This document shows, piece after piece, positions 7,825 through 37,038 of a DNA stretch of 64,000 nucleotides. A model generated the notes under the pieces. That model saw only the letters and a program-made list of their open reading frames with translations. It was not told the origin of the DNA and did not search any database. Position 1 is the stretch's first letter. Every line of letters begins with the position of its first letter. The stretch spans positions 124,001 to 188,000 of the forward strand of contig NZ_NADJ01000033.1 in the NCBI RefSeq assembly GCF_002196705.1, read 5' to 3'. This DNA comes from Desulfosporosinus sp. FKB (GTDB lineage Bacteria > Bacillota > Desulfitobacteriia > Desulfitobacteriales > Desulfitobacteriaceae). Both the position numbers and the translations under genes were made by a program.

Positions 7825-7890
7825 GGAGAAGGAAGTAAGAAATTTTTAGGGAATGTTTAGGAAGCTCGATTGTAAGAGGTGTTATTCGAT

Positions 7891-9936
7891 ATGAAGGTTG
7901 AAAATCTTATGATTGCCCCAATATGTATTCAACCCGAGCAAACACTTACAGAAGTTGTAACGAAATTATTTGATGCAAATGTTGCAGGATTACTAGTTAC
8001 ATTACACGAAAAAGTTCTTGGAATCGTTGAACGTCATCAGCTGATAAATCCCCAAATAATATCTAACCCCAGTCTTAGTGCTGCTGATTTTATGAAAACA
8101 GATTTCCCCAAGATTTATTTGCGAGATAACTTGCAAAAAGTATGGCATGGGGGATTGGAGATATTACCCGTGTTTAACCAAGGTCTTTTGGTTGGGATGG
8201 TAGAACGCGAAGTAGTTGGGATGACACTTTTTCGAGAAAAGGAACTCTGGGTTAAGACATTTGAGGCCGTCTCCAATTCTGTGACCAGCGGTATTGTCGC
8301 TATTGATCAAACTGGTAAAATTACAGCCTTTAATAAAGCCGCCGAAAAATTTACCTGGCGCAAACAGCATGATGCTTTAGGAAAGTATTTGGCAGATATG
8401 ATTATTCCCACAGGACTTTTAGACGTTGTCGGGACAGGATTGCCGCAGTTTGATTTTCGAATTGAGGCGTTTAATAGAGCCTATGTGAGCAATCGTACAC
8501 CGATCATCGAAGATGGCAAAGTTGTCGGTGCCGTAGGCGTCTTTCAAGATATATCAGAAATAGAGAGTGCTTCACAAGAACTTAAAGTTCTTAATGCGCT
8601 TAATGACGAATTAAACACTGTTCTTAATTCATCATTTGACGGAATATTGGTAACTGATGAAGCTGGCCGAGTTTTGCGTGCAAATTCGGCAGCTTACAAG
8701 CTTTGTAATTTAGATGAGCAGCATATTCTCCAGTGTTTTATTGATAATGTGCTGCAGTTACAGAGACCCTCGCTTTGGAAATGTATTCTCCATGGGCGTA
8801 AGGCTGTTACTAAAGAGATAAAGGATCGGCATCTTCTAATTACGGGAAATCCCGTTTTTAAGGAAGACGGTACCTTGCAGCGGGTAATTTTTAATTTAAG
8901 AGATCTAAGCTTGCTGCATGAATTGCGTGATGAATTAAACACAACCAGGGAGCTTTCGCATAAATATCGTCAGGAATTGGATTCTCTGCGTAAAGGAGGG
9001 GATATCATAGCTAATTCTCCTAAAATGCTGATGGTACTTGATTTGGCTAAGCGAGTGGCATCCGTAGATTCATCTGTATTTATCAAAGGGGAATCTGGGG
9101 TAGGTAAAGAGGTTATCGCAAAGTTTATACATAAAAACAGTAAACGTGCTTCTGGGCCATTTATTCAAGTGAACTGTGCCGCGATTCCCGAGAACCTGCT
9201 GGAGTCGGAACTTTTTGGCTACGATGGCGGTGCGTTTACAGGATCTAGAAAGGAAGGGAAACCGGGCCTTTTCGAATTAGCCAATCAAGGAACTTTGTTA
9301 TTGGATGAAATCGGCGATCTTCCGTTAATTCTGCAAAGCAAACTGTTGCGCGTTATTCAGGAACGAGAATTTGTGCGGGTTGGGGGCACAAAAGTACGGA
9401 AAATAGATGTTCGTTTCCTCTCAGCAACTCATAGAGATATCTCTGAGATGGTTAAAGAGGGATTATTTCGAGATGATTTGTTTTTTAGACTTCATGTTGT
9501 TCCTCTTACTATTCCTTCACTCCGTGAACGATCTGAGGATATTTTGCCTCTTGTTCATACCTTCCGTGAACGAGTATGCAAAAAGTATGGACTGGATAAA
9601 GACTTTGCTCCTGAAGTCCTGCAATGGTTTTTAAACGAACAATGGCCCGGCAATGTTCGTCAGCTCCAAAATACGGTTGAACAATTAATCGTAACTTGTC
9701 CTGAACCTATAGTAACCATTAGTCAGCTGATGCAAGAACAATCGGATGATAAGCCGGCTATCCAAGTTAATTCAATTATCCCCCTTAAAAAAGCAAGCAG
9801 TGAAATGGAACGTCAAATTCTCGGTTTAGCTTTGAGGCAGACGCGAAATACCTATGATTTAGGAAGATTATTAGGTGTTAATCAATCTACGGTTGTACGT
9901 AAGCTTCAACGATTAGGTATTGGTATATTGGAGTAA
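7891..9936 (+). CDS. sigma54-dependent activator, CBS-PAS-PAS-AAA+-HTH
   Basis: About 681 aa. An N-terminal CBS-type pair (about 1-115) is followed by two PAS-like regions (about 125-230 and 245-345) and a sigma54-interacting AAA+ domain (about 370-600) with Walker A GESGVGKE, loop GGAFTGS (GAFTGS rather than the usual GAFTGA) and LLLDEIGDLP. A TyrR/Fis-like HTH ends it (YDLGRLLGVNQSTVVRKL). CBS domains suggest sensing of a nucleotide or CoA-type ligand (inference). It faces a metabolic module with two sigma54 promoters, so it is probably their activator. ATG 7891 is preferred over in-frame GTG 7879, which overlaps the AGAGGT. Confidence 0.93.
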   Translation: MKVENLMIAPICIQPEQTLTEVVTKLFDANVAGLLVTLHEKVLGIVERHQLINPQIISNPSLSAADFMKTDFPKIYLRDNLQKVWHGGLEILPVFNQGLLVGMVEREVVGMTLFREKELWVKTFEAVSNSVTSGIVAIDQTGKITAFNKAAEKFTWRKQHDALGKYLADMIIPTGLLDVVGTGLPQFDFRIEAFNRAYVSNRTPIIEDGKVVGAVGVFQDISEIESASQELKVLNALNDELNTVLNSSFDGILVTDEAGRVLRANSAAYKLCNLDEQHILQCFIDNVLQLQRPSLWKCILHGRKAVTKEIKDRHLLITGNPVFKEDGTLQRVIFNLRDLSLLHELRDELNTTRELSHKYRQELDSLRKGGDIIANSPKMLMVLDLAKRVASVDSSVFIKGESGVGKEVIAKFIHKNSKRASGPFIQVNCAAIPENLLESELFGYDGGAFTGSRKEGKPGLFELANQGTLLLDEIGDLPLILQSKLLRVIQEREFVRVGGTKVRKIDVRFLSATHRDISEMVKEGLFRDDLFFRLHVVPLTIPSLRERSEDILPLVHTFRERVCKKYGLDKDFAPEVLQWFLNEQWPGNVRQLQNTVEQLIVTCPEPIVTISQLMQEQSDDKPAIQVNSIIPLKKASSEMERQILGLALRQTRNTYDLGRLLGVNQSTVVRKLQRLGIGILE

Positions 9937-10038
9937 TGCTCTAGTGCATTTTTTAATGCATTTGAGCATTATAGGGCGTTAAGGCAATATTCATATTATT
10001 TGGATAAGTTGGATTTATTATAAATGCACTTATGCATT
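9935..10038. promoter_or_regulatory. three AATGC-N6-GCATT dyads (candidate activator sites)
   Basis: Three perfect 16-bp dyads AATGC-N6-GCATT lie at 9935-9950, 9955-9970 and 10023-10038. The first overlaps the activator stop codon and the first two start 20 bp apart, about two helical turns. TyrR-type HTH proteins bind dyads with a 6-bp centre, so these could be sites for the adjacent activator (inference). No promoter lies directly downstream. Confidence 0.5.
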
Positions 10039-10057
10039 ATAAGTTCTTAAATGCAGA

Positions 10058-10104
10058 AGAGGGTGTTGGAAAACTGCTTTTTCAGAAGTTTTCCAACACC
10101 CTCT
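10058..10104. terminator. bidirectional terminator
   Basis: An 18-bp perfect stem (arms 10058-10075 and 10087-10104, core GGGTGTTGGAAAACT) between the convergent activator and thioesterase genes. T-rich on both exits. Confidence 0.88.
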
Positions 10105-10151
10105 TTGATAATTATTTTAGTAAGGTAAATGAGCAAATAAAATATTATGTG

Positions 10152-10544
10152 TTAGAGATAAGTAACCATAAATGTTGCTGTGCCGAAGGCTATTAAATGG
10201 CCAGCATCATCCTTGATTTCACCTTGTCCAACAATTAAATTTCTTCCTTTTTGGATTACTTTGCCTTGAGCTCGAAGGCTTCCTTTATTGGCAGGGCGCA
10301 AATAGTTTATTTTCATTTCAACGGTGGAAGCACCTTCGCCGGTATCTAATTGTTGGTTTACTGCAACTGCAATAGAAGAATCCAGCAACGAAGCAATGAC
10401 TCCGCCGTGAACATTTCCATAAAACTGCTTTAAATTATCAGTTATCTCAATCATGACTTCAATTTCTCCGGCGTTATTCTCAACCGTTCTCATGCCCATG
10501 TGATTCCAATAGTTACCGCTTTCTAGATCCGCAATTCTTACCAT
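10152..10544 (-). CDS. PaaI-type hotdog thioesterase
   Basis: A 130-aa protein with the hotdog signature YGNVHGGVIASLLDSS (about 41-56), where the HGG loop and the following acidic residue are typical of PaaI/YdiI acyl-CoA thioesterases, and a C-terminal IAFGTATFMV strand. It hydrolyses acyl-CoA thioesters in the cytoplasm. As the last gene of the leftward operon behind the decarboxylase beta and gamma-like genes, it could release CoA from pathway intermediates. RBS AAGGGGGG precedes ATG 10544. Confidence 0.88.
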   Translation of the reverse strand: MVRIADLESGNYWNHMGMRTVENNAGEIEVMIEITDNLKQFYGNVHGGVIASLLDSSIAVAVNQQLDTGEGASTVEMKINYLRPANKGSLRAQGKVIQKGRNLIVGQGEIKDDAGHLIAFGTATFMVTYL

Positions 10545-10659
10545 AGTTCAGTAAGCCCCCCTTGATATCTTAATTTTAATACCATTATGCTGCATTTGCT
10601 TTATCGCTGAAAGGGGTTGCTCCAAATTCGAATGTAATTTTGAACGTTGCAGGGATCTC

Positions 10660-10821
10660 CTAGCTTTTTTTATTACCTTCTGGAGATTCGGGAAATTTGC
10701 TGTTAATAAAACCTAAACCTTTTATAAAAAAACTAATCCCCCAAAGGACAAAGAAGCAAGCAACAAAATCAAAAACGCTTAATACGAGAGCTCCCGAAAA
10801 AGTATCTGGAATGATTGACAC
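10660..10821 (-). CDS. 53-aa membrane peptide, OadG-like gamma subunit candidate
   Basis: GTG at 10821 directly follows the TAA of the OadB-like gene, so the two are coupled. The peptide has one long hydrophobic segment (about residues 11-33) and a Lys/Ser/Pro-rich hydrophilic tail ending in NKKS. Its size, topology and position match the small gamma (OadG/GcdD-like) subunit that anchors Na+-translocating decarboxylases, but sequence similarity is too weak to assert. No other gene fits between the beta subunit and the thioesterase. Confidence 0.65.
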   Translation of the reverse strand: MSIIPDTFSGALVLSVFDFVACFFVLWGISFFIKGLGFINSKFPESPEGNKKS

Positions 10822-11946
10822 TTAAAACACCCCCAATAAAGTCAGCATAATTCCGCCTGCCACTGCTGTTCCCAAAACACCTGCCAGATTTGGTCCCATT
10901 GCATGCATGATTAGGTAATTGCGTTTATTATATTTTATTCCAACATTATGAGATACCCGAGCAGCCATAGGTACAGCTGCAATGCCTGCAGAGCCGATTA
11001 AGGGATTTATTTTCCCCTTGCTTATTTTACACATAAGCCTTGCCCAGAGAATTCCGCTTGCTGAACCTGAACAGAAAGCAATGAGTCCCAAGGTTACAAT
11101 TTTTAAAGTTTGGAGGTTAACGAAGTTCTCGGCACTCATTGTTGAGCCAATTGCTACGGCAATAAATACCGTAATGATATCTAAAAATACCCCTCCAATG
11201 GTAGCAGATACCCTATCCATAACACCAGATTCTCGTATCAAATTACCTAACATTAAACATGAAATTAAGGGCGCAATAGGCGGTAATAAAACTAAAACAA
11301 TCATGATCATCATAATGGGAAAAATTATTTTTTCGCGTCTGGACACAGGTCTCATTTTTTCCATGGCTATTTTTCTTTCTTCCATGGGAATCAATGCTTT
11401 CATAATAGGCGGTTGAATTAGCGGAAGCAGCGCCATATAGGAGTATGCGGCAACCGCAATCTGACCAAGCAAATGGGGGGCCAGTTTAGTAGCTACATAG
11501 ATAGCCATCGGTCCGTCTGCTCCGCCGATGATCCCAATAGCGCTGGATTCAGCAATACTGAAGCCTAGAAGCTTAGCACCGATTAAGGCAATGAAAATAC
11601 CAAGATGGGCAGCAGCTCCAAGGATAATTGTGCTTGGATTTGCTATCAAAGGCCCAAAGTCCGTCATCGCTCCGACTCCTAAAAATATTAAGGGTGGATA
11701 AATGACATTCGTTATTCCTTGGTAATTAAAATGTAAAAGTCCTCCAGGCCCCATTAAACCCGTCCCGGGAATGTTTACCAGGATACATCCTACTCCCAGA
11801 GGAACTAACAGAAAGGGCTCATATTTTTTGACAATGCCGAACCATATAAATAACATGCCAAAAAACAACATGATGATATGGGCCGGAGTAAAATTTGCGA
11901 GACCCGTACCTTGCCCCATCGCCTTAATCATCGTCAATATTTCCAT
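10822..11946 (-). CDS. Na+-transporting decarboxylase beta subunit (OadB/GcdB/MmdB family)
   Basis: A 374-aa polytopic membrane protein with the family motifs GIIGGADGPMAIY (about 137-149) and NPLIGSAGIAAVPMAARV (near 315-332). In this family the beta subunit decarboxylates carboxybiotin and couples this to export of two Na+. Full length. ATG 11946 follows a GGAGAAA. It is transcribed from a sigma54 promoter at 12112-12127 and lies back-to-back with the operon encoding the carboxytransferase and biotin carrier, so the pump is split over two divergent transcripts. Confidence 0.95.
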   Translation of the reverse strand: MEILTMIKAMGQGTGLANFTPAHIIMLFFGMLFIWFGIVKKYEPFLLVPLGVGCILVNIPGTGLMGPGGLLHFNYQGITNVIYPPLIFLGVGAMTDFGPLIANPSTIILGAAAHLGIFIALIGAKLLGFSIAESSAIGIIGGADGPMAIYVATKLAPHLLGQIAVAAYSYMALLPLIQPPIMKALIPMEERKIAMEKMRPVSRREKIIFPIMMIMIVLVLLPPIAPLISCLMLGNLIRESGVMDRVSATIGGVFLDIITVFIAVAIGSTMSAENFVNLQTLKIVTLGLIAFCSGSASGILWARLMCKISKGKINPLIGSAGIAAVPMAARVSHNVGIKYNKRNYLIMHAMGPNLAGVLGTAVAGGIMLTLLGVF

Positions 11947-12111
11947 AGTTTTTCTCCTTTTTAAATAAAGTAATGATTCCCAACTTCAAACGTTCAGCTA
12001 CTTAAGAAATATTAATTAAAAATTCATTCCCCCTTTATCGAAAAACAATCGAGACTTTGAACAAGAGCTAAAGTGAATTTTGAATTTGGATTCGGTCTTA
12101 ATAGGCAAATA

Positions 12112-12127
12112 AGCAAGTTCTATGCCA
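12112..12127 (-). promoter_or_regulatory. sigma54 promoter, leftward
   Basis: On the minus strand: TGGCAT-N5-TTGCT, matching the -24/-12 consensus TGGCAY-N5-TTGCW at every defined position. Predicted start near 12101, about 155 bases before the OadB-like ATG. Confidence 0.82.
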
Positions 12128-12170
12128 AGGAACTATGGTAAAGTATGTAATTTGCTGATCTTGAATAGCA

Positions 12171-12187
12171 TGGCACATTATTTGCAT
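12171..12187 (+). promoter_or_regulatory. sigma54 promoter, rightward
   Basis: TGGCAC-N5-TTGCAT, a perfect -24/-12 element with predicted start near 12197, 27 bases before the biotin-carrier ATG. Its -24 box is only 43 bp from that of the divergent promoter. Confidence 0.88.
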
Positions 12188-12223
12188 AATTCGAAGTTGA
12201 GTATTTTTTGGGGGGGGATTGAA

Positions 12224-12433
12224 ATGGCAAATTTAGATAGCCCAATTGCAGGTAAAATTCTTGAGGTCTATATAAAGGTGGGTCAGCAGATTACGGAGGA
12301 CGATGAATTATTCATCATTGAGGCTATGAAAATGGAGAATCCCGTATACGGTGATGCAGGTACAGTAAAAGAGGTTAATGTCAAAGTTGGGGACCGTGTG
12401 CAAGAGGGGGATACTTTGGCAATTATCGAGTAA
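12224..12433 (+). CDS. biotin carboxyl carrier protein (biotinyl domain only)
   Basis: A 69-aa protein consisting solely of a biotinyl/lipoyl-attachment domain, with the biotinylation motif EAMKMENP (Lys36). It shuttles CO2 as carboxybiotin from the carboxytransferase to the membrane beta subunit. The Ala/Pro-rich linker found in many GcdC/OadA carriers is absent. An upstream ATG at 12122 is in frame but overlaps the sigma54 promoter; ATG 12224 after GGGGGGGATT is the start. Confidence 0.95.
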   Translation: MANLDSPIAGKILEVYIKVGQQITEDDELFIIEAMKMENPVYGDAGTVKEVNVKVGDRVQEGDTLAIIE

Positions 12434-12444
12434 AAGACAAACTA

Positions 12445-12468
12445 GCCCTCAATCTTTTAATTGAGGGC
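12445..12468 (+). promoter_or_regulatory. intercistronic hairpin
   Basis: Perfect 9-bp stem GCCCTCAAT (12445-12453) and ATTGAGGGC (12460-12468) with a 6-base loop but no U-tract. It lies between the biotin carrier and the dehydrogenase. It could stabilise the 3' end of the carrier mRNA or partly attenuate, letting the small carrier be made in excess (inference). Confidence 0.6.
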
Positions 12469-12514
12469 AGGCAAAATGTTTGAAAAAGTTGTCTTAAAGA
12501 GAGGGGAGAGTTCT

Positions 12515-13672
12515 ATGGATTTTGGCTTAACAGAAGAACAACGAATGGTTCAAGAAATGGCCCGAGATTTTGCTGAAAAAGAAATAGTTCCTAACGTTGA
12601 AGAAGACGAAGAGAATCATTATTATCGGCGAGAGATCTTAACTAAAATGGGCGAGTTGGGCTTGTTAGGCTGGAGCATTCCTGAGGAATACGGCGGAAAT
12701 GGCATGGGTTGGATGGAAGCTGTTACGGCGTTATATGAAATAGCAAAAGTTCATACTTCCTGGAGACTAAGTATCAGCGGCAACTGCTGGGGACCGGCGA
12801 TGACGATCAATGAATATGGCACTGAAGAACAAAAAAGAAAGTATATCCCTGGATTGGTAAGTGGGAATTATGTCGGAAGTTTTGCGATGACTGAAGCCAA
12901 TACGGGTTCTGACGTAGCTAGTATGAAGACCTTTGCCGAAGATAAGGGTGACCATTTTTTAATTAACGGTTCCAAAATGTGGATATCAGGAGGCCATACT
13001 TGTGATGTGGGACTTCTCTATCTCGTTACTGAAAAAGATGCAGGAGCAAAGGGCCTTTCCTGTTTAATCGTGGATTATAATAATACCCCAGGCGTGACCC
13101 GAATTCCGATTACGAAAAAAGTCGGCATGTGGCCGGCCCCGACGTCAGAACTCGTCTTCGAGAATGCTGTGGTTCCTAAGGAAAATCTCTTGGGGCCTAA
13201 AAATAAAGGTTTTCAAATATGCATGTGGATGCTGAATAATACTCGGATGGGCTGCGCAACCGGTGCAGCGGCACTTTCGGCAGCGTGTTTGGAGGGTGCG
13301 GTTCAATATGCCAATGAGCGTACTCAGTTTGGTAAACAAATTGGTCAATTCCAAATGATACAGCAGCAAATAGCTGAAATGAAACTTGAAGATGAAGCAG
13401 CCAAATACCTTGTTTATCGGGCCGCTTGGCTTAAAGAGAATAAACTGCCGAGTCAACAAGCAACTTCATTGGCTAAACTATTCGGTTGCAATGCAGCTGT
13501 TCACGCTGCAAATATGGCTATGAAACTTTATGGTTCCTATGGTTATTCGACAGAATATCCTTGCGGCAGGTGGCTTCGCGATGCCAAACAATTCGAAACT
13601 TTAGAGGGAACCTCCAATATCCACATGCAGATTATCTCCAAAATTGAACTTGGTTACCAGGCAAATAGATAA
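12515..13672 (+). CDS. acyl-CoA dehydrogenase, probable non-decarboxylating glutaryl-CoA dehydrogenase
   Basis: A 385-aa FAD enzyme with FAMTEANTGSD and the C-terminal LEGTSNIHMQ motif, Glu364 being the expected catalytic base. Arg84 in TSWRLS aligns by eye with the glutarate-binding Arg of glutaryl-CoA dehydrogenases; the residue before the catalytic Glu is Leu rather than the Tyr of decarboxylating enzymes. Since a separate biotin decarboxylase is encoded next to it, a non-decarboxylating glutaryl-CoA to glutaconyl-CoA oxidation is the best guess. Other acyl-CoA substrates remain possible. ATG 12515 follows GAGGGGAGAG; the frame extends back to 12461 inside the hairpin. Confidence 0.82.
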   Translation: MDFGLTEEQRMVQEMARDFAEKEIVPNVEEDEENHYYRREILTKMGELGLLGWSIPEEYGGNGMGWMEAVTALYEIAKVHTSWRLSISGNCWGPAMTINEYGTEEQKRKYIPGLVSGNYVGSFAMTEANTGSDVASMKTFAEDKGDHFLINGSKMWISGGHTCDVGLLYLVTEKDAGAKGLSCLIVDYNNTPGVTRIPITKKVGMWPAPTSELVFENAVVPKENLLGPKNKGFQICMWMLNNTRMGCATGAAALSAACLEGAVQYANERTQFGKQIGQFQMIQQQIAEMKLEDEAAKYLVYRAAWLKENKLPSQQATSLAKLFGCNAAVHAANMAMKLYGSYGYSTEYPCGRWLRDAKQFETLEGTSNIHMQIISKIELGYQANR

Positions 13673-13714
13673 TTGAATATTCAAAATTTAATTGTTTGTT
13701 GAGGAGGGTTAATA

Positions 13715-15457
13715 ATGGGAGACTACGAATATTCAATGCATCCGTATTTTAAAGAAATGCCCGCTCTTGGTAAGGGGCTGTCACGCAGAATAGAGCAAAA
13801 TGCAGAAGAGCTTAAAACCATAGAAGCTGAAATTGCTAAAGAAGTCGAAAGGGTTAAGAATTCAGGCAAAGCGACGGAGGCTTTGAACAAAAAAGGGGAA
13901 TTGTCAGCCTGGCAGCGCATTGACTACTTAGTTGATCCAGGGACTTGGTGTCCACTGCATACAATTTATGATCCGGCCAATAATGAGGAGAAAAATACCG
14001 GAGTTATTGACGGTTTGGGAAAAATTTCTGGTAAATGGGCAGTTATCATTGCTTCAAATAATAAAGTAATGGCGGGTGCATGGCTTGCCGGACAGGCCGA
14101 TAATGTTCTGCGGGTAACTGATATAGCTAAGCGGCTGCACTTGCCTTTGGTTTGGGTACTCAACTGCAGCGGCGCTAAATTAATGGAACAAGAAGAGCTT
14201 TACGCTAACAGAAGAGGGAGCGGTACTCCTTTCTTTCGGCACGCCGAACTACAAAAGCTTGGCATACCCATAATAGTAGGTATATACGGTACAAATCCTG
14301 CCGGCGGCGGCTATCATTCGATAAGTCCGACAATTTTAATTGCCCATAAGAACGCTAATATGGCCGTTGGCGGAGGCGGCATTGTTGGCGGCATGAATCC
14401 TAAAGGATATGTCGATGAAGAGGCAGCAGAGAGTTTGATCGAACAAACGCGTATGTTTAAAGCCACACCTCCTGGCAGAGTGGAAATTCATCATAATGGA
14501 ACAGGTTTCATGAGAGATGTTTGTGATACGGAAGAAGAAGTTTTGGATCGAATTAAGAAATACATGATGGATCTCCCGGCTTATGCCAAAGACTTTTTCA
14601 GAGTGGCTGATCCGGCTGAACCTAAATTTCCTGCAGAGGATCTTTATAGTTTAATACCCTTTAACCAGAAAAGAGTTTATCCGATGCATGAAGTCTTGGC
14701 CAGGCTTTTTGACAATAGTGAACATATGGAATTTAGACCAGATTATGGTCCGGAGGTATATTGCGGATTAGTTAAAATTGATGGTTACTTATGCGGATTT
14801 GTCGCCAATAATCAGGGGATTTTAGGGAAAGGTTATCCAAGATATGCAGATTATCAAGGAATCGGCGGAAAATTATATCGCGAAGGGCTCATTAAAATGA
14901 ACGAGTTCGTGACTCTTTGCGGCCGAGATAGAATTCCGATGATCTGGGTGCAGGATACCACCGGTATTGACGTTGGTGACACCGCTGAAAAGGCAGAAAT
15001 GTTAGGACTGGGAATGTCCTTGATCTATTCTATAGAACAGTCCGATCTTCCCATGATGAGTATTATTTTGCGTAAAGGAACAGCTGCTGCCCACTACGTA
15101 CTTGGGGGACCTCAGGCCAATAATAATAATGTTTTCACGTTAGGAACTGCGGCTACGGAAGTTTATGTTATGCACGGAGAAACAGCCGCAGCTGCTTCCT
15201 ATGCGAGACGTTTGGTCAAAGACAACGATGAGAGCAAGCCTTTAGAACCAACCATTCATAAAATGAATGATATGATTAAAGATTACTACGATAAATCCAG
15301 ACCCGCATATTGCGCTAAAAAGGGCTATGTTGATGAAATTGTGGACTTAGAGAATTTGCGCAAATACTGCATAGCTTTCGTAGGGTCCTATTATCAGAAC
15401 CCAGTTTCCATTTGCGCTGCCCATCAGATGTTAACACCGAGAGTTATCAAAGGATAA
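13715..15457 (+). CDS. gcdA: glutaconyl-CoA decarboxylase alpha-type carboxytransferase
   Basis: A 580-aa two-lobed carboxyltransferase (crotonase fold), the length of Acidaminococcus GcdA. Both lobes carry oxyanion-forming Gly-rich segments (NPAGGGYHS and AVGGGGIVGGMNPKGY in the first; the GDTAEKAEM and HYVLGGPQANNNN region in the second). In GcdA this subunit transfers the gamma-carboxylate of glutaconyl-CoA to biotin. Related enzymes act on methylmalonyl-CoA, but the overall sequence reads as GcdA. RBS GAGGAGGG before ATG 13715. It sits between the dehydrogenase and a biotin ligase. Confidence 0.88.
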   Translation: MGDYEYSMHPYFKEMPALGKGLSRRIEQNAEELKTIEAEIAKEVERVKNSGKATEALNKKGELSAWQRIDYLVDPGTWCPLHTIYDPANNEEKNTGVIDGLGKISGKWAVIIASNNKVMAGAWLAGQADNVLRVTDIAKRLHLPLVWVLNCSGAKLMEQEELYANRRGSGTPFFRHAELQKLGIPIIVGIYGTNPAGGGYHSISPTILIAHKNANMAVGGGGIVGGMNPKGYVDEEAAESLIEQTRMFKATPPGRVEIHHNGTGFMRDVCDTEEEVLDRIKKYMMDLPAYAKDFFRVADPAEPKFPAEDLYSLIPFNQKRVYPMHEVLARLFDNSEHMEFRPDYGPEVYCGLVKIDGYLCGFVANNQGILGKGYPRYADYQGIGGKLYREGLIKMNEFVTLCGRDRIPMIWVQDTTGIDVGDTAEKAEMLGLGMSLIYSIEQSDLPMMSIILRKGTAAAHYVLGGPQANNNNVFTLGTAATEVYVMHGETAAAASYARRLVKDNDESKPLEPTIHKMNDMIKDYYDKSRPAYCAKKGYVDEIVDLENLRKYCIAFVGSYYQNPVSICAAHQMLTPRVIKG

Positions 15458-15508
15458 GGTTTCTCACTCGAGTTGATTAAACAATTTATTGTAAAAAGGG
15501 TGATCAGG

Positions 15509-16324
15509 GTGTTAAACATGGCCGCCAATGTTAGGAACGAAACTGCTTTACCACACAAACATATTAAAGTATTCGAAAAGGATCTATTCCTATATCGAAA
15601 AGTATCCTCTACCAACAGAGTTGCACAATCTTTAGCCCGTTCAGGAATTATTGAGGGCACAATTGTTTTGAGCAGTATGCAGACCTCGGGAATGGGAAGG
15701 ATGAAACGAAAGTGGGAATGTCCAGCCGGGCGAGGAATCTTAATGTCCATGATATTTAAACCTGAAATCAGCCTTAAGCTAGTTCCGCAGCTGACGCTTC
15801 TTTGCGGGGTTGTGGCAGCGGAAACAATTCGCAAGATAACAGGATGTCAAGCAGATATAAAATGGCCTAATGATATTGTCATCGGAGGAAAAAAGGTTTG
15901 TGGAATTCTCGCTCAAAGCTGTTTCTCTAATAACGAGCTATCATACGTAGTCATGGGCGTTGGAATTAATGTAAACCAGACTCGGGATCAACTTCCCCCT
16001 GATTGCAGAGAAACAAGTACCTCACTAAAGTTAGAAGTTGGACATAAAGTTTCTCGTCTTAGGTTACTCGAAGTGTTTATTATGCTTTGGAACGAATATT
16101 ATGCGCTTTTTCTTAAGAGAGGGCACTCATTTCTAAAGCCGAAATGGAAAGCCTACAATGTTACTTTAGGACGTGAAGTCAGCATCAATAGCGGAGATGG
16201 ACTCCGACATGGTTTAGCTATCGATATCAGCGAAAGAGGAGGGTTGATCGTAAATTTTCCCGACGGTTTGTCTGAGGAGTTTTTGGCTGAAGATCTTAGT
16301 TTAGGCAGAGCTCATTATGGATGA
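15509..16324 (+). CDS. birA: biotin--[acetyl-CoA-carboxylase] ligase lacking the HTH domain
   Basis: About 271 aa with the biotinyl-AMP motif region GMGRMKRKWECPAGRG, the KWPNDIV motif and GVGINVN, then a small C-terminal SH3-like domain. There is no N-terminal winged-helix domain, so it is a monofunctional ligase and not a repressor. Its place behind gcdA suggests dedicated biotinylation of the 69-aa carrier. GTG 15509 is 8 bases after AAAGGG; ATG 15518 is an alternative. Confidence 0.92.
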   Translation: MLNMAANVRNETALPHKHIKVFEKDLFLYRKVSSTNRVAQSLARSGIIEGTIVLSSMQTSGMGRMKRKWECPAGRGILMSMIFKPEISLKLVPQLTLLCGVVAAETIRKITGCQADIKWPNDIVIGGKKVCGILAQSCFSNNELSYVVMGVGINVNQTRDQLPPDCRETSTSLKLEVGHKVSRLRLLEVFIMLWNEYYALFLKRGHSFLKPKWKAYNVTLGREVSINSGDGLRHGLAIDISERGGLIVNFPDGLSEEFLAEDLSLGRAHYG

Positions 16325-16351
16325 TAATCTCGGGAAATACTTAACTGAATT

Positions 16352-16388
16352 AATGCCTGAATGCATTTAGCTTATGCATTTAGGCATT
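16352..16388. promoter_or_regulatory. second pair of AATGC-N6-GCATT dyads
   Basis: AATGC-CTGAAT-GCATT at 16352-16367 is perfect; TATGC-ATTTAG-GCATT at 16373-16388 has one mismatch. They start 21 bp apart. A further GATGC-ATAA-GCATT lies near 16440. The gap 16325-16587 holds no gene. Two weak GG-N10-GC sigma54-like elements (near 16471 and 16517) lie downstream, at a distance usual for an enhancer. Confidence 0.5.
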
Positions 16389-16587
16389 AATCGAGATAAA
16401 TAGAAAATGTTCCTGTTTTAATAATCAATCTATGTTCGAGATGCATAAGCATTAATTTGTATTAAGTATGTGGAGGGTAAGAGGCATAGCGTCTATGTAA
16501 TTCAGAAAATTTAGAATAGGGTAAACAGGCGCAAGATTCGTACTTTTATTTTATGGAACACAGATTTTGTGATCGGAGGTGAATCCA

Positions 16588-16896
16588 ATGCAAGATACCT
16601 TAGAAGTTAATCAGAAGTTAGTTAGCCATTTTCAACAAATCATGCAAAGAGTTTGGTGTGATAATTCTCTCATCAACGGTTTAGAAGAAGTTCAAGAAAA
16701 CTTAGAGCAAATTATAAAATCGGCAGAGGCAAGTAAAGTAGTCTTAAGTCAACTAAGCAAAGCTCATAAAGAGGCTCTTCAAAAGGACTGGGATTTAAAG
16801 TATCGAGTCTTAGAAAACTTTCTGGTGTCCATGGAACATGTGTTAAAACAATTTCAGGAAGAACGTCAACAATTACGCGGGAATGGTTCACAGTAA
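16588..16896 (+). CDS. small helical protein of unknown function
   Basis: About 102 aa, almost entirely charged and predicted alpha-helical, with heptad-like Leu/Val spacing suggesting a coiled coil; one Cys. No family recognised. ATG 16588 follows GGAGGTGA; GTG 16579 is a weaker alternative. It is the first gene after the 260-bp regulatory gap and immediately precedes another unknown small gene and the CoA-transferase, so it may be specific to this pathway. Confidence 0.7.
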   Translation: MQDTLEVNQKLVSHFQQIMQRVWCDNSLINGLEEVQENLEQIIKSAEASKVVLSQLSKAHKEALQKDWDLKYRVLENFLVSMEHVLKQFQEERQQLRGNGSQ

Positions 16897-16920
16897 ATGA
16901 ACTGGAAAGGAGAGTAAACA

Positions 16921-17160
16921 ATGCTTAACTTATATTGGGAAAATATGCCGTTGCTGATATTGCTTGAACAGCGTCTCAGGCAGTGGGGGAATGTTGACCT
17001 GATTGGTAAGCATACTCTGCGCTTAATTCCTTCAGATTCTAAAGTGCCGCCAGTTTATATTCATCAAAATGGTGCGATTGACGTTCTGACTTCAGGTCTT
17101 GATTTATTTGAACAAGAGGATTGTATCGAAAGATTAGAACTTTGGCTAGGGGTTAACTGA
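16921..17160 (+). CDS. small protein of unknown function
   Basis: 79 aa, starting MLNLYWENMPLLILLEQRLR, with a mixed alpha/beta pattern, acidic C-terminus and no recognised domain. GGAAAGGAGAG precedes ATG 16921. It lies 24 bp after the preceding small gene and 18 bp before the CoA-transferase start, so it is certainly in that operon. Confidence 0.72.
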   Translation: MLNLYWENMPLLILLEQRLRQWGNVDLIGKHTLRLIPSDSKVPPVYIHQNGAIDVLTSGLDLFEQEDCIERLELWLGVN

Positions 17161-17178
17161 TTCAAGGAGGTGACCGTA

Positions 17179-18294
17179 TTGTCTGATTTAATGTCAAAAG
17201 TGATGTCAGCTAAAGAAGCTGTTCAGAGATTTATACCACCAGGAACACATATCGCTTTTGGTGGCTTTACCATACTTCGCCGGCCAATGGCTATTGCGCG
17301 TGAAATTGTCCGGCAAAGAGTCGGGAACCTTTATTTAACAATGAATGGCGGAACATTGTGCGAAGAGATGCTTGCAGGTGCAGGTTTGGTAAAGTGGCTG
17401 GAAAGTACTTATTTAGGATTGGAAGGCGGGATGCCCGTAGCCTATGGCATGCGAAAAGCTATTGAGGAAGGGGAAATAGAACTTCTCGAGGATTATACAA
17501 ATTGGAGTTTTGCCCTGCGAACGATAGCCGGTCGGTATGGACTTCCCTTTATGCCTTGCTTAGGTGATATTGGGAGCGACCTTGTTACCTATGATGTATT
17601 CGGTAAGGCAGGATTAAGAGGAAAAAATGATCAGGGCGAATGGATTCATCCCGGTATTCCTCCTCATAAATATTCCATGATGGATGATCCCTTCGACGGT
17701 TGGGGCTTAAGACCTCATAAGTTTAGAACTGGAGAGGATACGTGCGGAAATCGGACAAATGTCTACCGAAAGGGAAAGGTGACATCTGTTAAATATACGG
17801 GAAAACCCGGAGTTAAGGTTGCTCTTGTTCCGCCAATATTGCCGGAGGTCTGCGTAGTTCATGCTCAACGCGTTGCTTTGGATGGGACGGTACGTTTCGA
17901 GGGGCTTATTGGGCCCGACATTGATCAATCCCTCTGCGGCCGTATCCTAATTGTCGAATGCGAACGGATCTGTTCCCCTGAAGAACTGCGTCATTGTCCT
18001 GAGAAAAACCAGATTGCAGCACATGCTGTTCATGCCATTGTAGAAGCACCTTTTGGATGTTATCCTTCTGCAGTTCCAAATTATTATGATTATGATTACA
18101 GTTGGTTCAAAAATTACGTTAAGGAAGTTAATCATAAATCAAAGGATGAAGTTAAAGCTTACTGGTTGGAAACAGTCGGTTCAACTAAAGATGAATGGGA
18201 TTATCTCTTAGGCGTCGTAGGTATGGATAAGCTTTTTTCCTTGAGAACGGACCCAGTATATCACTACAATCCCACAATTGAACGATTTAAGTAA
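17179..18294 (+). CDS. glutaconate CoA-transferase subunit A-like
   Basis: About 371 aa, a family I CoA-transferase alpha subunit (FGGFTILRRPMAIAREI near the N-terminus, MNGGTLCEEMLAG, later SAVPNYYDYD). It is about 50 residues longer than Acidaminococcus GctA (320 aa), with a C-terminal extension. With the next gene it would move CoA from acetyl-CoA or another acyl-CoA to a dicarboxylate such as glutarate. TTG 17179 is 8 bases after AAGGAGG; ATG 17191 is an alternative. Confidence 0.85.
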   Translation: MSDLMSKVMSAKEAVQRFIPPGTHIAFGGFTILRRPMAIAREIVRQRVGNLYLTMNGGTLCEEMLAGAGLVKWLESTYLGLEGGMPVAYGMRKAIEEGEIELLEDYTNWSFALRTIAGRYGLPFMPCLGDIGSDLVTYDVFGKAGLRGKNDQGEWIHPGIPPHKYSMMDDPFDGWGLRPHKFRTGEDTCGNRTNVYRKGKVTSVKYTGKPGVKVALVPPILPEVCVVHAQRVALDGTVRFEGLIGPDIDQSLCGRILIVECERICSPEELRHCPEKNQIAAHAVHAIVEAPFGCYPSAVPNYYDYDYSWFKNYVKEVNHKSKDEVKAYWLETVGSTKDEWDYLLGVVGMDKLFSLRTDPVYHYNPTIERFK

Positions 18295-18309
18295 AGGAGG
18301 TGTATCGAA

Positions 18310-19176
18310 ATGACGGCAGATCAAGTTTATCAGGATTATCTTGACCGAACAGGGCTAAAAGCAGAAGAGTTTACTCTAATGGAGTTACTCGCGGTGGCGA
18401 CTAAACGGGAAATTCCCAACGGGGCGTTTGTTTTCGTAGGAACTGGGCTCCCATTGCTTTCTGCTATGTTAGCTCAACATACAGATGCACCGGATATGAC
18501 AATGATCCTTGAGGCGGGAACAGTGGGGCCGACGATCAAACATTTGCCGATTTCAGTTGCCGATCCACGGGCCGCTTATCAAGCATCTGTATTATCAACT
18601 GTAGCTGATGCCTTTGGAACAATTGCCTGTCGTGGTTATTGTACCTTGGGGTTGCTTGGAGCCGCCGAGTGTGACATGTATGGAAACTTAAACTCTAGTG
18701 CTGTTGGTGGATATTTGCCTGCGGGAGTATCGGAAAACGGACATGGACCGTCAACTCGTTTAACAGGCAGCGGCGGAGCCAACAACATTGCTTCCTTAGC
18801 AGACAAAGTTATTGTTTCCATGGTTCACGAAAAGCGCCGAATGGTAGAAAAAGTGGAATATTTGACGTCGCCCTGTGGAATGCGTGGCCCCAAAGGGGAA
18901 AATCGCTTTGACTACGGGCTGTTTCGCGGCGGGAATTTAGTAGTAATTAGTGACTTGGGAATGCTGCGTCCAAATCAAGAGAGCGGAATCTTAGAGCTGG
19001 ATATGTATTATCCAGGTGTCAGCCCTGAATTAATTAAGGAAAATACAGGTTGGTCCCTTAACATTGAAAATGCTAAAGAAATGAAGTCTCCTACATTTGA
19101 GGAACTCCGGATTTTACGTACGTTAGTAGATCCTGATCGCTTGTTCCTTGGGCGTAAAAGTAAGCGTAAAGCCTAA
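18310..19176 (+). CDS. glutaconate CoA-transferase subunit B-like
   Basis: A 288-aa family I CoA-transferase beta subunit. The segment ILEAGTVGP is where the glutamate forming the CoA-thioester intermediate is expected in GctB-like proteins (assigned by eye). A long Gly-rich region, TGSGGANNIASLA, follows. The start is 15 bp after subunit A behind AAAGGAGGTG. Both subunits together form the enzyme. Confidence 0.87.
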   Translation: MTADQVYQDYLDRTGLKAEEFTLMELLAVATKREIPNGAFVFVGTGLPLLSAMLAQHTDAPDMTMILEAGTVGPTIKHLPISVADPRAAYQASVLSTVADAFGTIACRGYCTLGLLGAAECDMYGNLNSSAVGGYLPAGVSENGHGPSTRLTGSGGANNIASLADKVIVSMVHEKRRMVEKVEYLTSPCGMRGPKGENRFDYGLFRGGNLVVISDLGMLRPNQESGILELDMYYPGVSPELIKENTGWSLNIENAKEMKSPTFEELRILRTLVDPDRLFLGRKSKRKA

Positions 19177-19222
19177 TATTATCTGTCAATGGTGAATTTT
19201 GAGAAGGCAGGAGGAACACATT

Positions 19223-20635
19223 ATGCATCTCACAACAGTTCACATTATCTTCATTATCTTGGCAGTGGTTTTTGTCATAGGCGTAGGTGTATATTCAGGT
19301 ACCCGTGTAAAGAGTGCAGAGGATTTCGCTGGGGGAGGAAGGGCTTCAGCGCCACTTGTTGCTGGTATAATTATGGGAACTCTTGTAGGCGGATCATCAA
19401 CCGTTGGCACTGCCCAGCTTGCCTTTCAAGTTGGGGTGTCAGCATGGTGGTTTACTCTGGGTGCAGGGATAGGTTGTTTAGCGTTAGGCCTTTTTCTGGC
19501 AAAGCCTCTGAGAGAATCGGGCAAAGAAACTATTCCTCAATTTTTAGTCTCAACATATGGCCCGAATTCCGGACCAATAACTACGGTTTTTAGTTCCATA
19601 GGAATTTTTCTTAATGTTGTTGCACAAATTCTAGCAGCCAATGCCTTATTAGCTTCTATGTTTGGGCTTAATCTAATAACTGGTTCGCTAATTTCTATTA
19701 TCTTAGTTGTACTTTATGTATTTTTTGGTGGAAACGCAGGTTCAGGCATGACAGGAATTGCTAAACTTTTGCTTCTCTATTCGTCCCTAATTGTTGTAGG
19801 TGTTTTGGCCTATTCTCAAGCAGGAGGAATTGCAGGCATAACAAGTCATTTTCCGGCTTTCCCAACGTTTAGCCTATTTGGCCGCGGTTTTGAAATCGAC
19901 TTTGCTGCTGGTTTCTCCTTACTTGTTGGCGTTATCTCCACCCAAACATATTTCGGAGCATTATTTGCCGCTAAAGATGCAGCAACTGCCCGTCGTGGTG
20001 CTCTAATCTCTGCAATACTAATTCCTCCTACAGGAATTGCGGGTATACTAGTAGGTTTATATATGAAAATGAATTTCCCTAAAATGAGCGCGGCAGAGGC
20101 TTTACCGACGTTTGTCATCAATTATCTGCCTTCATGGTTTAGTGGTATCGTTTTGGGAACTCTTTTAATTGCTGTAATCGGCACTGGAGCGGGTTTGGTT
20201 CTTGGAATCAGTACGATGCTGACGAAGGATGTCTACAAGCGCTTTATTGCTCCCCAGGCGAGTGACCGGACTGTTCTGTTTGTTTCCAGAGGTCTTCTTG
20301 TAGTTGTTGCTGCCTTGAACCTAGTATTTGTGACCGGAAACTTAAAATCCCTAATCTTACAGTGGTCCTTCCTGTCAATGGGGTTGAGAGGTTGTACGGT
20401 ATGCATTCCTCTTTTAGGAGCTATTTTCTTCAAAGACAAGGTAAGCTCTAAGGCGGGTTTAATCGCCCTTGTTCTGGGCCCTGTTGCATGTTTAGCTTGG
20501 AAATTGATTTACCCTAAAGGTATCGATCCGTTATATATTGGATTATTGGCCAGCTTCGTATGTCTAGTTATTGGTTCGATGATATTTCCTGCCTCGAAAA
20601 ATAACCCCGCAGATAGGAATATTGTTTTTAAGTAA
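19223..20635 (+). CDS. sodium:solute symporter (SSS family)
   Basis: A 470-aa protein with about 12-13 hydrophobic segments and the SSS N-terminal pattern (YSGTRVKSAEDFAGGGR, then GTLVGGSSTVGTAQLAF). It imports an organic solute with Na+. As the last gene of the dicarboxylate module it probably carries the substrate and closes a Na+ cycle with the decarboxylase pump. ATG 19223 is 8 bases after AGGAGG; the frame opens earlier with TTG 19199. Confidence 0.9.
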   Translation: MHLTTVHIIFIILAVVFVIGVGVYSGTRVKSAEDFAGGGRASAPLVAGIIMGTLVGGSSTVGTAQLAFQVGVSAWWFTLGAGIGCLALGLFLAKPLRESGKETIPQFLVSTYGPNSGPITTVFSSIGIFLNVVAQILAANALLASMFGLNLITGSLISIILVVLYVFFGGNAGSGMTGIAKLLLLYSSLIVVGVLAYSQAGGIAGITSHFPAFPTFSLFGRGFEIDFAAGFSLLVGVISTQTYFGALFAAKDAATARRGALISAILIPPTGIAGILVGLYMKMNFPKMSAAEALPTFVINYLPSWFSGIVLGTLLIAVIGTGAGLVLGISTMLTKDVYKRFIAPQASDRTVLFVSRGLLVVVAALNLVFVTGNLKSLILQWSFLSMGLRGCTVCIPLLGAIFFKDKVSSKAGLIALVLGPVACLAWKLIYPKGIDPLYIGLLASFVCLVIGSMIFPASKNNPADRNIVFK

Positions 20636-20917: not shown

Positions 20918-21736
20918 ATGAATAAAAAAGTTAATGCGATGTATTTCAGCCCGACAGGAACAACGAAAAAAATAGTATCTAGTATCGCCCAGAAGATTTC
21001 AGACAATATTTGTAAAGATTTAGTGCTAAATACCATTGATTTTACTTTACCAGAGGGAAGATCGAAGGCTGTTTCGTTTTCGAATGAAGACATTGTTGTC
21101 ATAGGGGTTCCTGTCTATGCGGGAAGAGTTCCGAACATCCTATTAAAATACTTAAATACGATTCAAGGTAATAATGCCTTAGCAATCCCAGTTGTTGTGT
21201 ATGGAAACAGAAACTTTGACGATGCTTTAATCGAACTAAAAGATATTCTCGAGTTTAATACTTTTAAAGTGGTTGCGGGTGGGGCATTTATAGGGGAGCA
21301 CTCATTTTCAGTAATTCTTGCTAAAAATAGACCGGATGACAAGGACATGGAGATAGTCGATCAATTCGCTCATCGTATATCCACAAAAATTACAACTCAG
21401 CAAGAAATAGTTACTGTAGCAATAAAAGGAAATCAACCCTATAGACCGTATTATATGCCCAAAGACAAAAATGGCACTCCCGTGGATATCAGAAGAGTTA
21501 CTCCAAAAACAAACGATAATTGCATTGACTGTAAACTTTGTGTCAGTGTTTGTCCTATGGGCTCAATTGATGAGGAAGATACTTCTAAATTAAAAGGAAT
21601 CTGTATCAAATGCGGGGCCTGTATTAAAAAATGTCCTTCTCAAGCAAAATATTATGATGATGCAAATTATTTAAGACATAAGCAAGAACTAGAAATTGAG
21701 TATTCTTTCAGAAAAGAACCCGAATTGTTTATCTAA
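20918..21736 (+). CDS. EFR1-type flavodoxin/ferredoxin fusion protein
   Basis: 272 aa. An N-terminal flavodoxin-like domain (YFSPTGTTKK, an FMN phosphate loop, at about 9-18; VPVYAGRVP near 67-75) is followed by two ferredoxin motifs, CIDCKLCVSVCP and CIKCGACIKKCP, for two [4Fe-4S] clusters. An electron-transfer protein; partner unknown. GGTGGAGGGAG precedes ATG 20918. Transcribed towards bioB, but a 170-bp gap with a BirA operator separates them. Confidence 0.9.
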   Translation: MNKKVNAMYFSPTGTTKKIVSSIAQKISDNICKDLVLNTIDFTLPEGRSKAVSFSNEDIVVIGVPVYAGRVPNILLKYLNTIQGNNALAIPVVVYGNRNFDDALIELKDILEFNTFKVVAGGAFIGEHSFSVILAKNRPDDKDMEIVDQFAHRISTKITTQQEIVTVAIKGNQPYRPYYMPKDKNGTPVDIRRVTPKTNDNCIDCKLCVSVCPMGSIDEEDTSKLKGICIKCGACIKKCPSQAKYYDDANYLRHKQELEIEYSFRKEPELFI

Positions 21737-21850
21737 AATATTGATCAAAATATTAATTTCGAATATTAAAACAAATAATCTAATAATTGTCGAGACAATT
21801 GAACTTCTAATTATATGAAATTTCATAAGTGGAAATTTCTTTAAAAATTA

Positions 21851-21883
21851 TTGTAAACTTTTATTAGTGCTTATAGTTTACAA
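21851..21883 (+). promoter_or_regulatory. BirA operator upstream of bioB
   Basis: TTGTAAAC (21851-21858), a 17-base spacer, then GTTTACAA (21876-21883). This is the two-half-site pattern of bifunctional BirA operators (TTGTAAAC..., about N15 with flanking bases). It lies about 60 bp before bioB, consistent with biotin repression. Confidence 0.8.
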
Positions 21884-21945
21884 TTCGGGCATTTTTATTA
21901 TAATTGTTTATAAAGAAATTATTTGACGATAGGGTAGTGGATCAA

Positions 21946-36540: not shown

Positions 36541-37038
36541 ATGAAAAATATTGAGGATAGTGATCAAATAAGTATTATTCCATCGTGTCCTGTGGAATCA
36601 GGTCATAAGGATTTTTTATTAAAATTGTTTAAAGAATGTCGCCCGGATTTAGCCTTCATCAATGGTATAAGTAAAGAGATAAAAGCAACTGTAATATTAC
36701 AGCAGTTTAACATAGAACAACAGCAATTGCAGCAATTGTATCCAGAGGCCGAATTAAATATAGTGATGCTTCATAAAGAACCAGTTGGACGACTTTATTT
36801 ATTACGTGGAAAAAATGAAGTACGTGTTTTGGCACTAGGGTTGCTGGAAAAATACCGATGTAGGGGCATTGGCAGAAAACTTATGACTGCAGTAATTGAA
36901 AATGCCGCAAACAGAGGGAAAACTGTAAGCCTTCAAGTAACTTGGTTTAATCAAAGCGCCTATGCTTTTTATGAAAAAATAGGATTTAAAGTTATTGAAA
37001 ATAAAGGCGTCTCTTTGGAAATGCAGTACATGCCTTAA
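36541..37038 (+). CDS. GNAT-family N-acetyltransferase
   Basis: 165 aa with the acetyl-CoA loop region LALGLLEKYRCRGIGRKLM (about 100-118) and the C-terminal NQSAYAFYEKIGFKV motif. Transfers an acetyl group to an unknown substrate. Genes like this often accompany tail-collar (microcystin-dependent) protein genes, as here 83 bp downstream, but their joint role is not known to me. Confidence 0.88.
   Translation: MKNIEDSDQISIIPSCPVESGHKDFLLKLFKECRPDLAFINGISKEIKATVILQQFNIEQQQLQQLYPEAELNIVMLHKEPVGRLYLLRGKNEVRVLALGLLEKYRCRGIGRKLMTAVIENAANRGKTVSLQVTWFNQSAYAFYEKIGFKVIENKGVSLEMQYMP

Follow-up and report, generated by a model that had tools for sequence, protein, structure and literature searches.

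A sigma54-linked gene cluster of Desulfosporosinus sp. FKB with a predicted route from a five-carbon dicarboxylate, most probably glutarate, to crotonyl-CoA

Which acid is degraded by a cluster in which genes for an acyl-CoA dehydrogenase, a biotin-dependent decarboxylase and a putative carboxylic acid uptake unit stand side by side, and which ion does its membrane pump move? The cluster in question lies in a stretch of 64,000 nucleotides (the window) from Desulfosporosinus sp. FKB (contig NZ_NADJ01000033.1, positions 124,001 to 188,000), a member of a genus characterized by sulfate reduction, whose genome (G000) comprises 5.12 Mb in 40 contigs. Considered together, the identities of the genes, the promoters and the placement of the dehydrogenase in a tree, all read from sequence, make it probable that the cluster is a sigma54-switched module through which a five-carbon dicarboxylate, most probably glutarate, would be taken up and converted to crotonyl-CoA. 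The predicted passage from glutaryl-CoA via glutaconyl-CoA to crotonyl-CoA is well supported, and glutarate is the likely substrate. As such, the cluster represents a candidate glutarate regulon for Desulfosporosinus. Every gene named in the original prediction was found to be present, as judged by open reading frames (ORFs) and by comparisons with profiles and PDB sequences.

The dehydrogenase and decarboxylase genes

The core of the cluster consists of two divergent gene strings:

10152..10544, - strand: PaaI-like hotdog-fold thioesterase (NCBIfam TIGR00369, 92.1 bits; cut-off 36.6)
10660..10821, - strand: OadG/GcdD-like peptide, 53 amino acids (OAD_gamma, 17.5 bits; cut-off 27)
10822..11946, - strand: OadB/GcdB-like membrane subunit (Pfam OAD_beta, 479.9 bits; 6iva, 376 bits)
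12224..12433, + strand: free biotin carrier, 69 amino acids, EAMKME motif (Pfam Biotin_lipoyl, 60.6 bits)
about 12509..13672, + strand: glutaryl-CoA dehydrogenase, non-decarboxylating group, with Leu before the Glu and the Arg conserved (3mpi, 342 bits; tree)
13715..15457, + strand: GcdA, carboxyltransferase subunit of glutaconyl-CoA decarboxylase (3gf3, 787.5 bits; 1pix, 782.8 bits)
15473..16324, + strand: biotin protein ligase (Pfam BPL_LplA_LipB, 72.8 bits)

Among PDB sequences, the dehydrogenase was best matched by the glutaryl-CoA dehydrogenase 3mpi, the next match scoring 309 bits. Entries 3mpi and 3mpj are taken here to be the Desulfococcus multivorans enzyme, of the non-decarboxylating type. 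In a tree of 44 chosen sequences, a branch with support of 100/97 united the window protein with 3mpi and 32 others; two YEGTHD-type enzymes and the other acyl-CoA dehydrogenases fell outside this clade. A change from Tyr to Val before the catalytic Glu reportedly marks the non-decarboxylating type, as Wischgoll et al. are said to have described in 2010. Examination of residues 84-85 and 363-364, proposed as a check in the original prediction, revealed Arg-Leu and Leu-Glu, respectively (numbering from MDF), such that the Arg is kept and the catalytic Glu is preceded by Leu rather than by Tyr; retention of the Arg and absence of the Tyr are both shared with the D. multivorans enzyme. Tree placement and best PDB match thus agree with the assignment to the non-decarboxylating group made earlier, and dehydrogenation would proceed without loss of CO2. 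A decarboxylating dehydrogenase, which would render the decarboxylase redundant, was rejected in view of the tree and the residues.

The same positions were considered in 88 homologs of at least 50% identity, drawn from the best 80 of 592 matches and from 27 sequences obtained in pattern-free genome searches. Leu preceded the Glu in 47, Val in 37 and Tyr in none (four being unreadable), numbers to be read with the fact that one of the two peptide search patterns demanded Leu or Val at this position, fitting 47/47 Leu and 7/37 Val sequences, while the other pattern also fits 43 Leu and 34 Val sequences; the 27 pattern-free sequences comprised 23 with Leu, two with Val and two unreadable. The Arg was found in 84 of the 88, with three carrying another residue (L087, L090 and L106) and one being unreadable. 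In the tree, the Leu types formed a single clade (17 sequences, 100/100) nested among the Val types. In two proteobacterial records (L093 and L098), a Val-type dehydrogenase shares its stretch with gcdA, and a YEGTHD-type enzyme, here taken for the decarboxylating kind, is encoded separately.

Following the two glutaconyl-CoA decarboxylase (Gcd) structures listed above, the next PDB match to GcdA reached only 144.2 bits. The protein is the sole full-length PF01039 match in the genome, with two adjacent partial matches looking like AccD and AccA. Together with a biotin carrier bearing the MKM motif, this carboxyltransferase bears out the Gcd-type decarboxylase that had been proposed. In combining GcdA (about 787 bits), a free biotin carrier and an OadB-like subunit, the cluster resembles GcdABCD of Acidaminococcus fermentans and Clostridium symbiosum. 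The C. symbiosum carrier is, however, described as about 30 amino acids followed by an AP region and a further 70-71 amino acids, and its GcdD as having 95 amino acids (PMC7145394; publications are cited throughout from excerpts), whereas the window carrier of 69 amino acids is without an AP-rich linker and the GcdD-like peptide spans 53. Although its profile score stays below the cut-off, this OadG-like peptide is kept 3' of oadB in genomes G019 (79%) and G025 (69%), with counterparts of 49-50 amino acids in G140 and G399; position and sequence conservation thus speak for the identity originally proposed, which the profile does not confirm.

The thioesterase gene, absent from the original prediction, is the last of the leftward oadB string and is kept in G019 and G025. 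The genome has five PF03099 matches, the biotin ligase of the cluster among them. Downstream of the cluster, at window positions 20918-22917, are encoded a flavodoxin/ferredoxin-type protein and a biotin synthase-like radical SAM protein, the latter of which may supply the cluster's biotin.

The uptake unit and the gene neighbourhoods

The second string of rightward genes follows the biotin ligase:

16588..16896, + strand: small protein SP1, 102 amino acids (W..N conserved in 10/10 aligned sequences)
16921..17160, + strand: small protein SP2, 79 amino acids, adjoining gctA
17170..18294, + strand: GctA-like CoA-transferase subunit, 374-amino-acid subtype with an extra loop (1poi_A, 142 bits)
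18310..19176, + strand: GctB-like CoA-transferase subunit, ILEAG motif (1poi_B, 148 bits)
19223..20635, + strand: SSS-family (SSF) transporter, AVIGTGAG in transmembrane segment 8 (TM8) (Pfam SSF, 95.2 bits; cut-off 22.8)

Both CoA-transferase subunits match glutaconate CoA-transferase GctAB (1poi), and ILEAG of GctB aligns with VESG of 1poi_B, such that the Glu, presumably the catalytic residue, is kept. Unlike its 1poi counterpart, the window GctA is about 55 amino acids longer, owing to an internal loop common to eight other aligned members of the subtype. Assignment of GctAB as an AibAB/IpdAB-like decarboxylase or hydrolase was not favoured, given the presence of the Glu and the far higher scores with 1poi. 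A second GctAB, 32/42% identical to that of the window, is encoded in the same genome (L052:6472-13216, contig C33), where genes for an acyl-CoA dehydrogenase, a thiolase-like protein and a further sigma54 activator accompany it.

In the proposed route, the SSS transporter would import the dicarboxylate and GctAB would load it with CoA from an acyl-CoA donor, after which the Leu-type dehydrogenase would convert glutaryl-CoA to glutaconyl-CoA, with the CO2 retained and electrons passed to an electron transfer flavoprotein (ETF) encoded outside the cluster. The biotin carrier, itself charged by the biotin ligase, would then receive the carboxyl group through GcdA, and the OadB-like subunit would decarboxylate carboxybiotin and conserve energy across the membrane, with the metabolism of crotonyl-CoA presumably being completed by enzymes encoded elsewhere. 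No ETF, enoyl-CoA hydratase, hydroxyacyl-CoA dehydrogenase, thiolase or butyryl-CoA dehydrogenase was found among the ORFs assigned between 7.9 and 20.6 kb; as neither ETF nor any step beyond crotonyl-CoA is encoded in the cluster, the module cannot be termed complete, as had been claimed. Seven ECH_1 matches occur elsewhere in the genome.

The distribution of the core was addressed through the dehydrogenase, an ortholog of which (at least 83% identity) is found in 20/60 genomes, that of the window included. At 40 loci with an ortholog of at least 77% identity, gcdA (at least 55%) accompanied the dehydrogenase in 31, a sigma54 activator in 30, an OadB-like gene in 26 and a biotin carrier in 25. 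The 40 loci include the window itself (as L140, which ends before GctAB-SSS), four duplicate records (L032=L053, L040=L055, L042=L066 and L038=L067) and two pairs of neighbouring stretches of one genome each (L028/L029 and L036/L037); with the duplicates dropped, gcdA is present in 28/36.

What surrounds this core differs from genome to genome. In G025, the gene order is that of the window. In G019, by contrast, genes for biotin ligase, a CoA ligase pair (ATP-grasp/CoA-binding), enoyl-CoA hydratase, an acyl-CoA dehydrogenase, thiolase and 3-hydroxyacyl-CoA dehydrogenase come after a core closely similar to that of the window (activator 82%, OadB 95%, dehydrogenase 92% identity). Behind a dehydrogenase copy in G003 come genes for 3-hydroxyacyl-CoA dehydrogenase and thiolase, then a CitMHS/Na_sulph_symp-type transporter, GctAB (32/41% identical to that of the window), OadB, biotin carrier and gcdA, while one copy in G015 has genes of the TRAP-TAXI type nearby, along with a CoA ligase carrying ATP-grasp_5 and Succ_CoA_lig domains. 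The same core is thus combined with varying genes for uptake and activation, and in G019 and G003 beta-oxidation genes come after it. Together with the frequent presence of gcdA near the dehydrogenase, this linkage offers the main support for an entry at glutaryl-CoA and an exit at crotonyl-CoA. In Sinanaerobacter chloroacetimidivorans (L056:1501-12616), two dehydrogenase copies of 88% identity are found with biotin carriers, ETF and an OadB-like gene, in the vicinity of genes for an aldehyde dehydrogenase and a permease-like protein, a context hinting at lysine or 5-aminovalerate breakdown.

Pairing of a non-decarboxylating dehydrogenase with a sodium-dependent Gcd is described for obligate anaerobes (PMC5852087), such that the pairing itself is not new. 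A consortium that degrades benzene yielded an acd-gcdBC contig (PMC5852087), and benzene degraders are reported to carry comparable genes (PMC13101534, PMC13416013). There, as here, non-decarboxylating dehydrogenase and Gcd genes are carried by one organism or contig, but the benzene-degrader genes are placed at the end of benzoyl-CoA breakdown, and these excerpts mention neither an uptake system nor a CoA-transferase as partner. No paper title found in the open-licence literature names such an integrated cluster, nor was anything found there on glutarate use via glutaryl-CoA and crotonyl-CoA in sulfate reducers. Across the cluster and its relatives, a single core is combined with differing units for uptake and activation.

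Several observations weigh against a glutarate module of the kind proposed. The dehydrogenase scored 415.5 bits with NCBIfam GlutCoADH_Des, under the equivalog cut-off of 470, and carries Leu where the Desulfococcus enzyme has Val before the catalytic Glu. No close gcdA was detected at 9/40 dehydrogenase loci; five of these (L034, L038, L044, L061 and L067) span less than 10 kb, whereas the longer L035 and L115 stand as counter-examples, and only a distant (24-25%) carboxyltransferase is present at L057 and L059. The GctA subtype, present in 5/82 genomes of the class and in 12/398 sampled from the phylum (the window's genome being in both), occupies 16 loci, only two of which (G000 and G025) have the dehydrogenase-Gcd core alongside; the core is absent from the other 14 stretches, although L049, L157, L149 and L161 are shorter than 8 kb, such that it could lie beyond their ends. 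Finally, judged by title, no paper found in the open-licence literature deals with the use of glutarate by Desulfosporosinus.

Because the GctA subtype mostly occurs without the dehydrogenase, its acid could be another one. The subtype is accompanied by an SSS gene (at least 46% identity) in 11/16 loci and by a small ORF directly 5' of gctA in 10/16. Core-less units of SSS, small ORF and GctAB with the 374-amino-acid GctA are seen in other families (L149, L152-L161), some near an IlvD-type dehydratase and some, as read by eye, near apparent 2-oxoacid oxidoreductases and a PucR-like regulator. This raises the possibility of two adjacent modules, with the core being fed by internal glutaryl-CoA from lysine, pimelate or aromatics and SSS-GctAB serving another carboxylic acid, as would fit both the core-less units and the G019 stretch, where the core stands without this SSS-GctAB. 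Given, however, that the gene order is identical in two species (G000 and G025), such an arrangement is deemed rather unlikely.

SP1, for which no Pfam family scored over its cut-off, resembles small ORFs of G025 (62%), G024 (28%) and G013 (27%); a single SP1 family across all loci is not supported, profile comparison of two groups having given 9.5% probability (P-value 0.0034). Its single-sequence structural model, one long helix with a predicted template modelling score (pTM) of 0.40, is too weak to use, four of five models having a mean predicted local distance difference test score (pLDDT) of at most 65.1. SP2 occurs in 3/60 genomes (own included), in each case beside gctA, and a PDB search with SP2 gave no fold match at an E value of 0.001 or better; its single-sequence model (pLDDT 66.9) is too weak to use. 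A role for SP1 or SP2 as Gcd subunits was not favoured, since both track the GctA subtype and not gcdA. A plasmid search with GctA returned no match. With SSS-GctAB being separable from the core and SP1 and SP2 following the GctA subtype with no assigned role, glutarate use accounting for every gene, as originally claimed, is not established.

Were the substrate instead a near relative of glutarate, such as methylglutarate, the extra loop of GctA and the Leu in place of Val in the dehydrogenase would find an explanation; this is nonetheless improbable, given how very close GcdA is to two glutaconyl-CoA decarboxylases and the presence of beta-oxidation genes after the G019 and G003 cores. Operation in reverse, namely, carboxylation of crotonyl-CoA leading to glutaryl-CoA, is brought to mind by relatives in records named Smithella and Syntrophomonas, among the matches listed, and by reports that biotin-dependent decarboxylase pumps of this type are reversible (PMC7274780). 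Yet an uptake system and a CoA-transferase beside the core, as well as sigma54 control, fit catabolism, making reversal highly improbable.

The sigma54 promoters and the palindromes

Conversion of imported glutarate to crotonyl-CoA as a switched pathway is consistent with the regulatory elements of the cluster:

7879..9936, + strand: sigma54-dependent activator (Pfam Sigma54_activat, 227.9 bits; PAS, 59.1; CBS, 25.8)
9935..10050: clustered palindromes of the form AATGC(n)GCATT, lying between the activator and thioesterase genes, putative activator sites
12112..12127, - strand: sigma54 -24/-12 promoter of the oadB string, TGGCATAGAACTTGCT (score 19.5/21)
12171..12186, + strand: sigma54 -24/-12 promoter of the biotin carrier-dehydrogenase-gcdA-birA string, TGGCACATTATTTGCA (score 21/21)
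16352..16388: palindrome 5' of the second gene string, putative upstream activating sequence, nearly identical in G025

The activator comprises a CBS domain, two PAS stretches, an AAA+ sigma54-interaction domain and a C-terminal helix-turn-helix, the HTH_50 match of which (26.1 bits) falls slightly below the cut-off of 27. The divergent strings are separated by back-to-back -24/-12 elements, the perfect one starting at 12171 (+) and the other at 12127 (-). Two perfect sites were observed in the 64-kb window, as compared to none in 20 Markov simulations, while four sites scored at least 19.5, as compared to 1.0 expected. Moreover, both divergent elements are kept in G025 and G019 amid poorly conserved flanking DNA, that is, in three species, including that of the window. 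The activator gene and this conserved promoter pair corroborate the sigma54 control that had been predicted. When 16 dehydrogenase loci were scanned, several of those with a 39%-type activator had no -24/-12 site 5' of the dehydrogenase. A candidate sigma54 promoter 5' of SP1 scores 19.5/21 in G025 and is degenerate (14.5) in the window. The only perfect site in the window besides that at 12171 lies outside the cluster, at 36830-36845 (+).

Palindromes of the form AATGC..GCATT were matched 19 times in 64 kb, as compared to 8.6 expected, with clusters at 9935-10080 (six overlapping matches) and 16352-16388 (four overlapping matches). The motif was matched at both places in G025 and at the single corresponding place in G019. 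These putative sites would be bound by the sigma54 activator, although those beside the activator gene and the divergent promoters are some 2 kb apart, a long distance. For the two-module alternative, this region is double-edged: a palindrome and an intergenic gap precede SP1, as separate units might have, yet the presence of the same motif beside both the core and SSS-GctAB suggests one activator. Thus, from the original interpretation, sigma54 control, the joining of dehydrogenase and Gcd, and glutarate as the likeliest acid are retained, while completeness, the use of every gene and, as considered below, the Na+ circuit are not.

The membrane pump, the transporter and the coupling ion

In the predicted glutarate route, energy would be conserved at the OadB-like subunit, and the original prediction had Na+ exported there and driving uptake. 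When the window OadB was aligned with 6iva, Asp144 (=D203) was seen to be kept, whereas Met147, Gly252 and Ala323 correspond to T206, N311 and S382, respectively. Salmonella and Klebsiella OadB both have Ser382. In the Salmonella oxaloacetate decarboxylase (OAD), Asp203 and Ser382 lie at the first Na+ site, and with the S382A replacement Na+ was no longer bound and decarboxylation was severely inhibited (PMC7274780). The Ala is a feature of the window OadB, with A. fermentans and C. symbiosum GcdB standing outside this comparison.

Among 82 distinct OadB proteins with adequate cover, collected by similarity to the window protein and hence enriched in its clade, 12 have Ala at position 382 and 70 have Ser. 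The 12 Ala proteins (from G000, G019, G025, G140, G399, G326, G451, G198, G433, G164, G321 and G250) form one side of a branch (100/99; 200/200 bootstrap trees) and span four families (f1, f18, f32 and f67; stretches L176-L178, L201-L204, L206-L210 and L230-L238). Within this clade, Met is found at 206 in 12/12 and Gly at 311 in 10/12, while the equivalents of Asp203, Asn412 and Glu40 are retained in the window protein and the 11 other members. As nine proteins of a remote Ser-type subfamily (28-33%) also have Met206, four of them with Gly311, Met206 and Gly311 are not by themselves diagnostic of the clade. The two other Desulfosporosinus proteins of the clade are 94-95% identical to that of the window, which speaks against a decaying copy, and in G140 and G399, outside this genus, oadB diverges from biotin carrier-gcdA-biotin ligase as in the window. 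The Ala382 group is thus natural, of single origin and distributed over four bacterial families, and is found here in an intact, conserved and regulated cluster. Either the site works otherwise than the Salmonella mutant suggests or the coupling ion has changed.

The transporter presents a similar picture. In TM8, AVIGTGAG stands where aligned choline transporters have AVMSS, such that Gly-Thr replaces Ser-Ser; the first Ser of the Na2 site is Gly in the window protein and in 9/9 distinct homologs (13 rows, four being repeated in L141-L144), three of the nine having lost both Na2 hydroxyls. The transporter scored 91.7 bits with NCBIfam sss, under the cut-off of 184. In SiaT, Ser342 and Ser343 coordinate Na2, and transport was lost upon S342A or S343A replacement (PMC5931594). 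The Na2 site is kept in 54.2% of SSF sequences and not in 45.8% (PMC5931594), and CbrA, a member of the SSS family in which the Na2 residues are missing, appears to be proton-driven (PMC7918813).

A full Na+ circuit, in which the pump would export the Na+ that the SSS transporter imports with glutarate, draws on the description of Gcd and OAD as Na+ pumps (PMC7274780, PMC8473912) and on the kept equivalents of Asp203 and Asn412. Against it stand the Ala at the Ser382 position, in light of the S382A result, and the Gly at the first Na2 Ser of the transporter, the latter tempered by the many SSF proteins that do without Na2. The circuit is therefore possible but falls short of probable, and is not upheld as originally stated.

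The only PF00137 match in the genome, the ATP synthase c subunit (L239:1483-1743), has N-G and E-A at the ligand positions. At these positions, Na+-type c subunits presumably have Q-G and E-S. A tentative and rather doubtful proposal is that decarboxylases of the Ala clade, here Gcd, in which the protonatable Asp203 is retained, pump protons or are uncoupled, with pump, transporter and ATP synthase forming a proton circuit; the pump residues would be explained equally well by a modified Na+ site or by a lack of coupling. No mention of a proton-moving biotin decarboxylase was found in the excerpts of the open-licence literature on these pumps. Because the window protein departs from the first Na+ site of Salmonella OAD, Na+ and H+ are given about equal weight as the ion moved by the pump. 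In G198, another genome with an Ala-clade protein, oadB appears, as read by eye, in a string with apparent methylmalonyl-CoA mutase, MeaB-like and epimerase genes.

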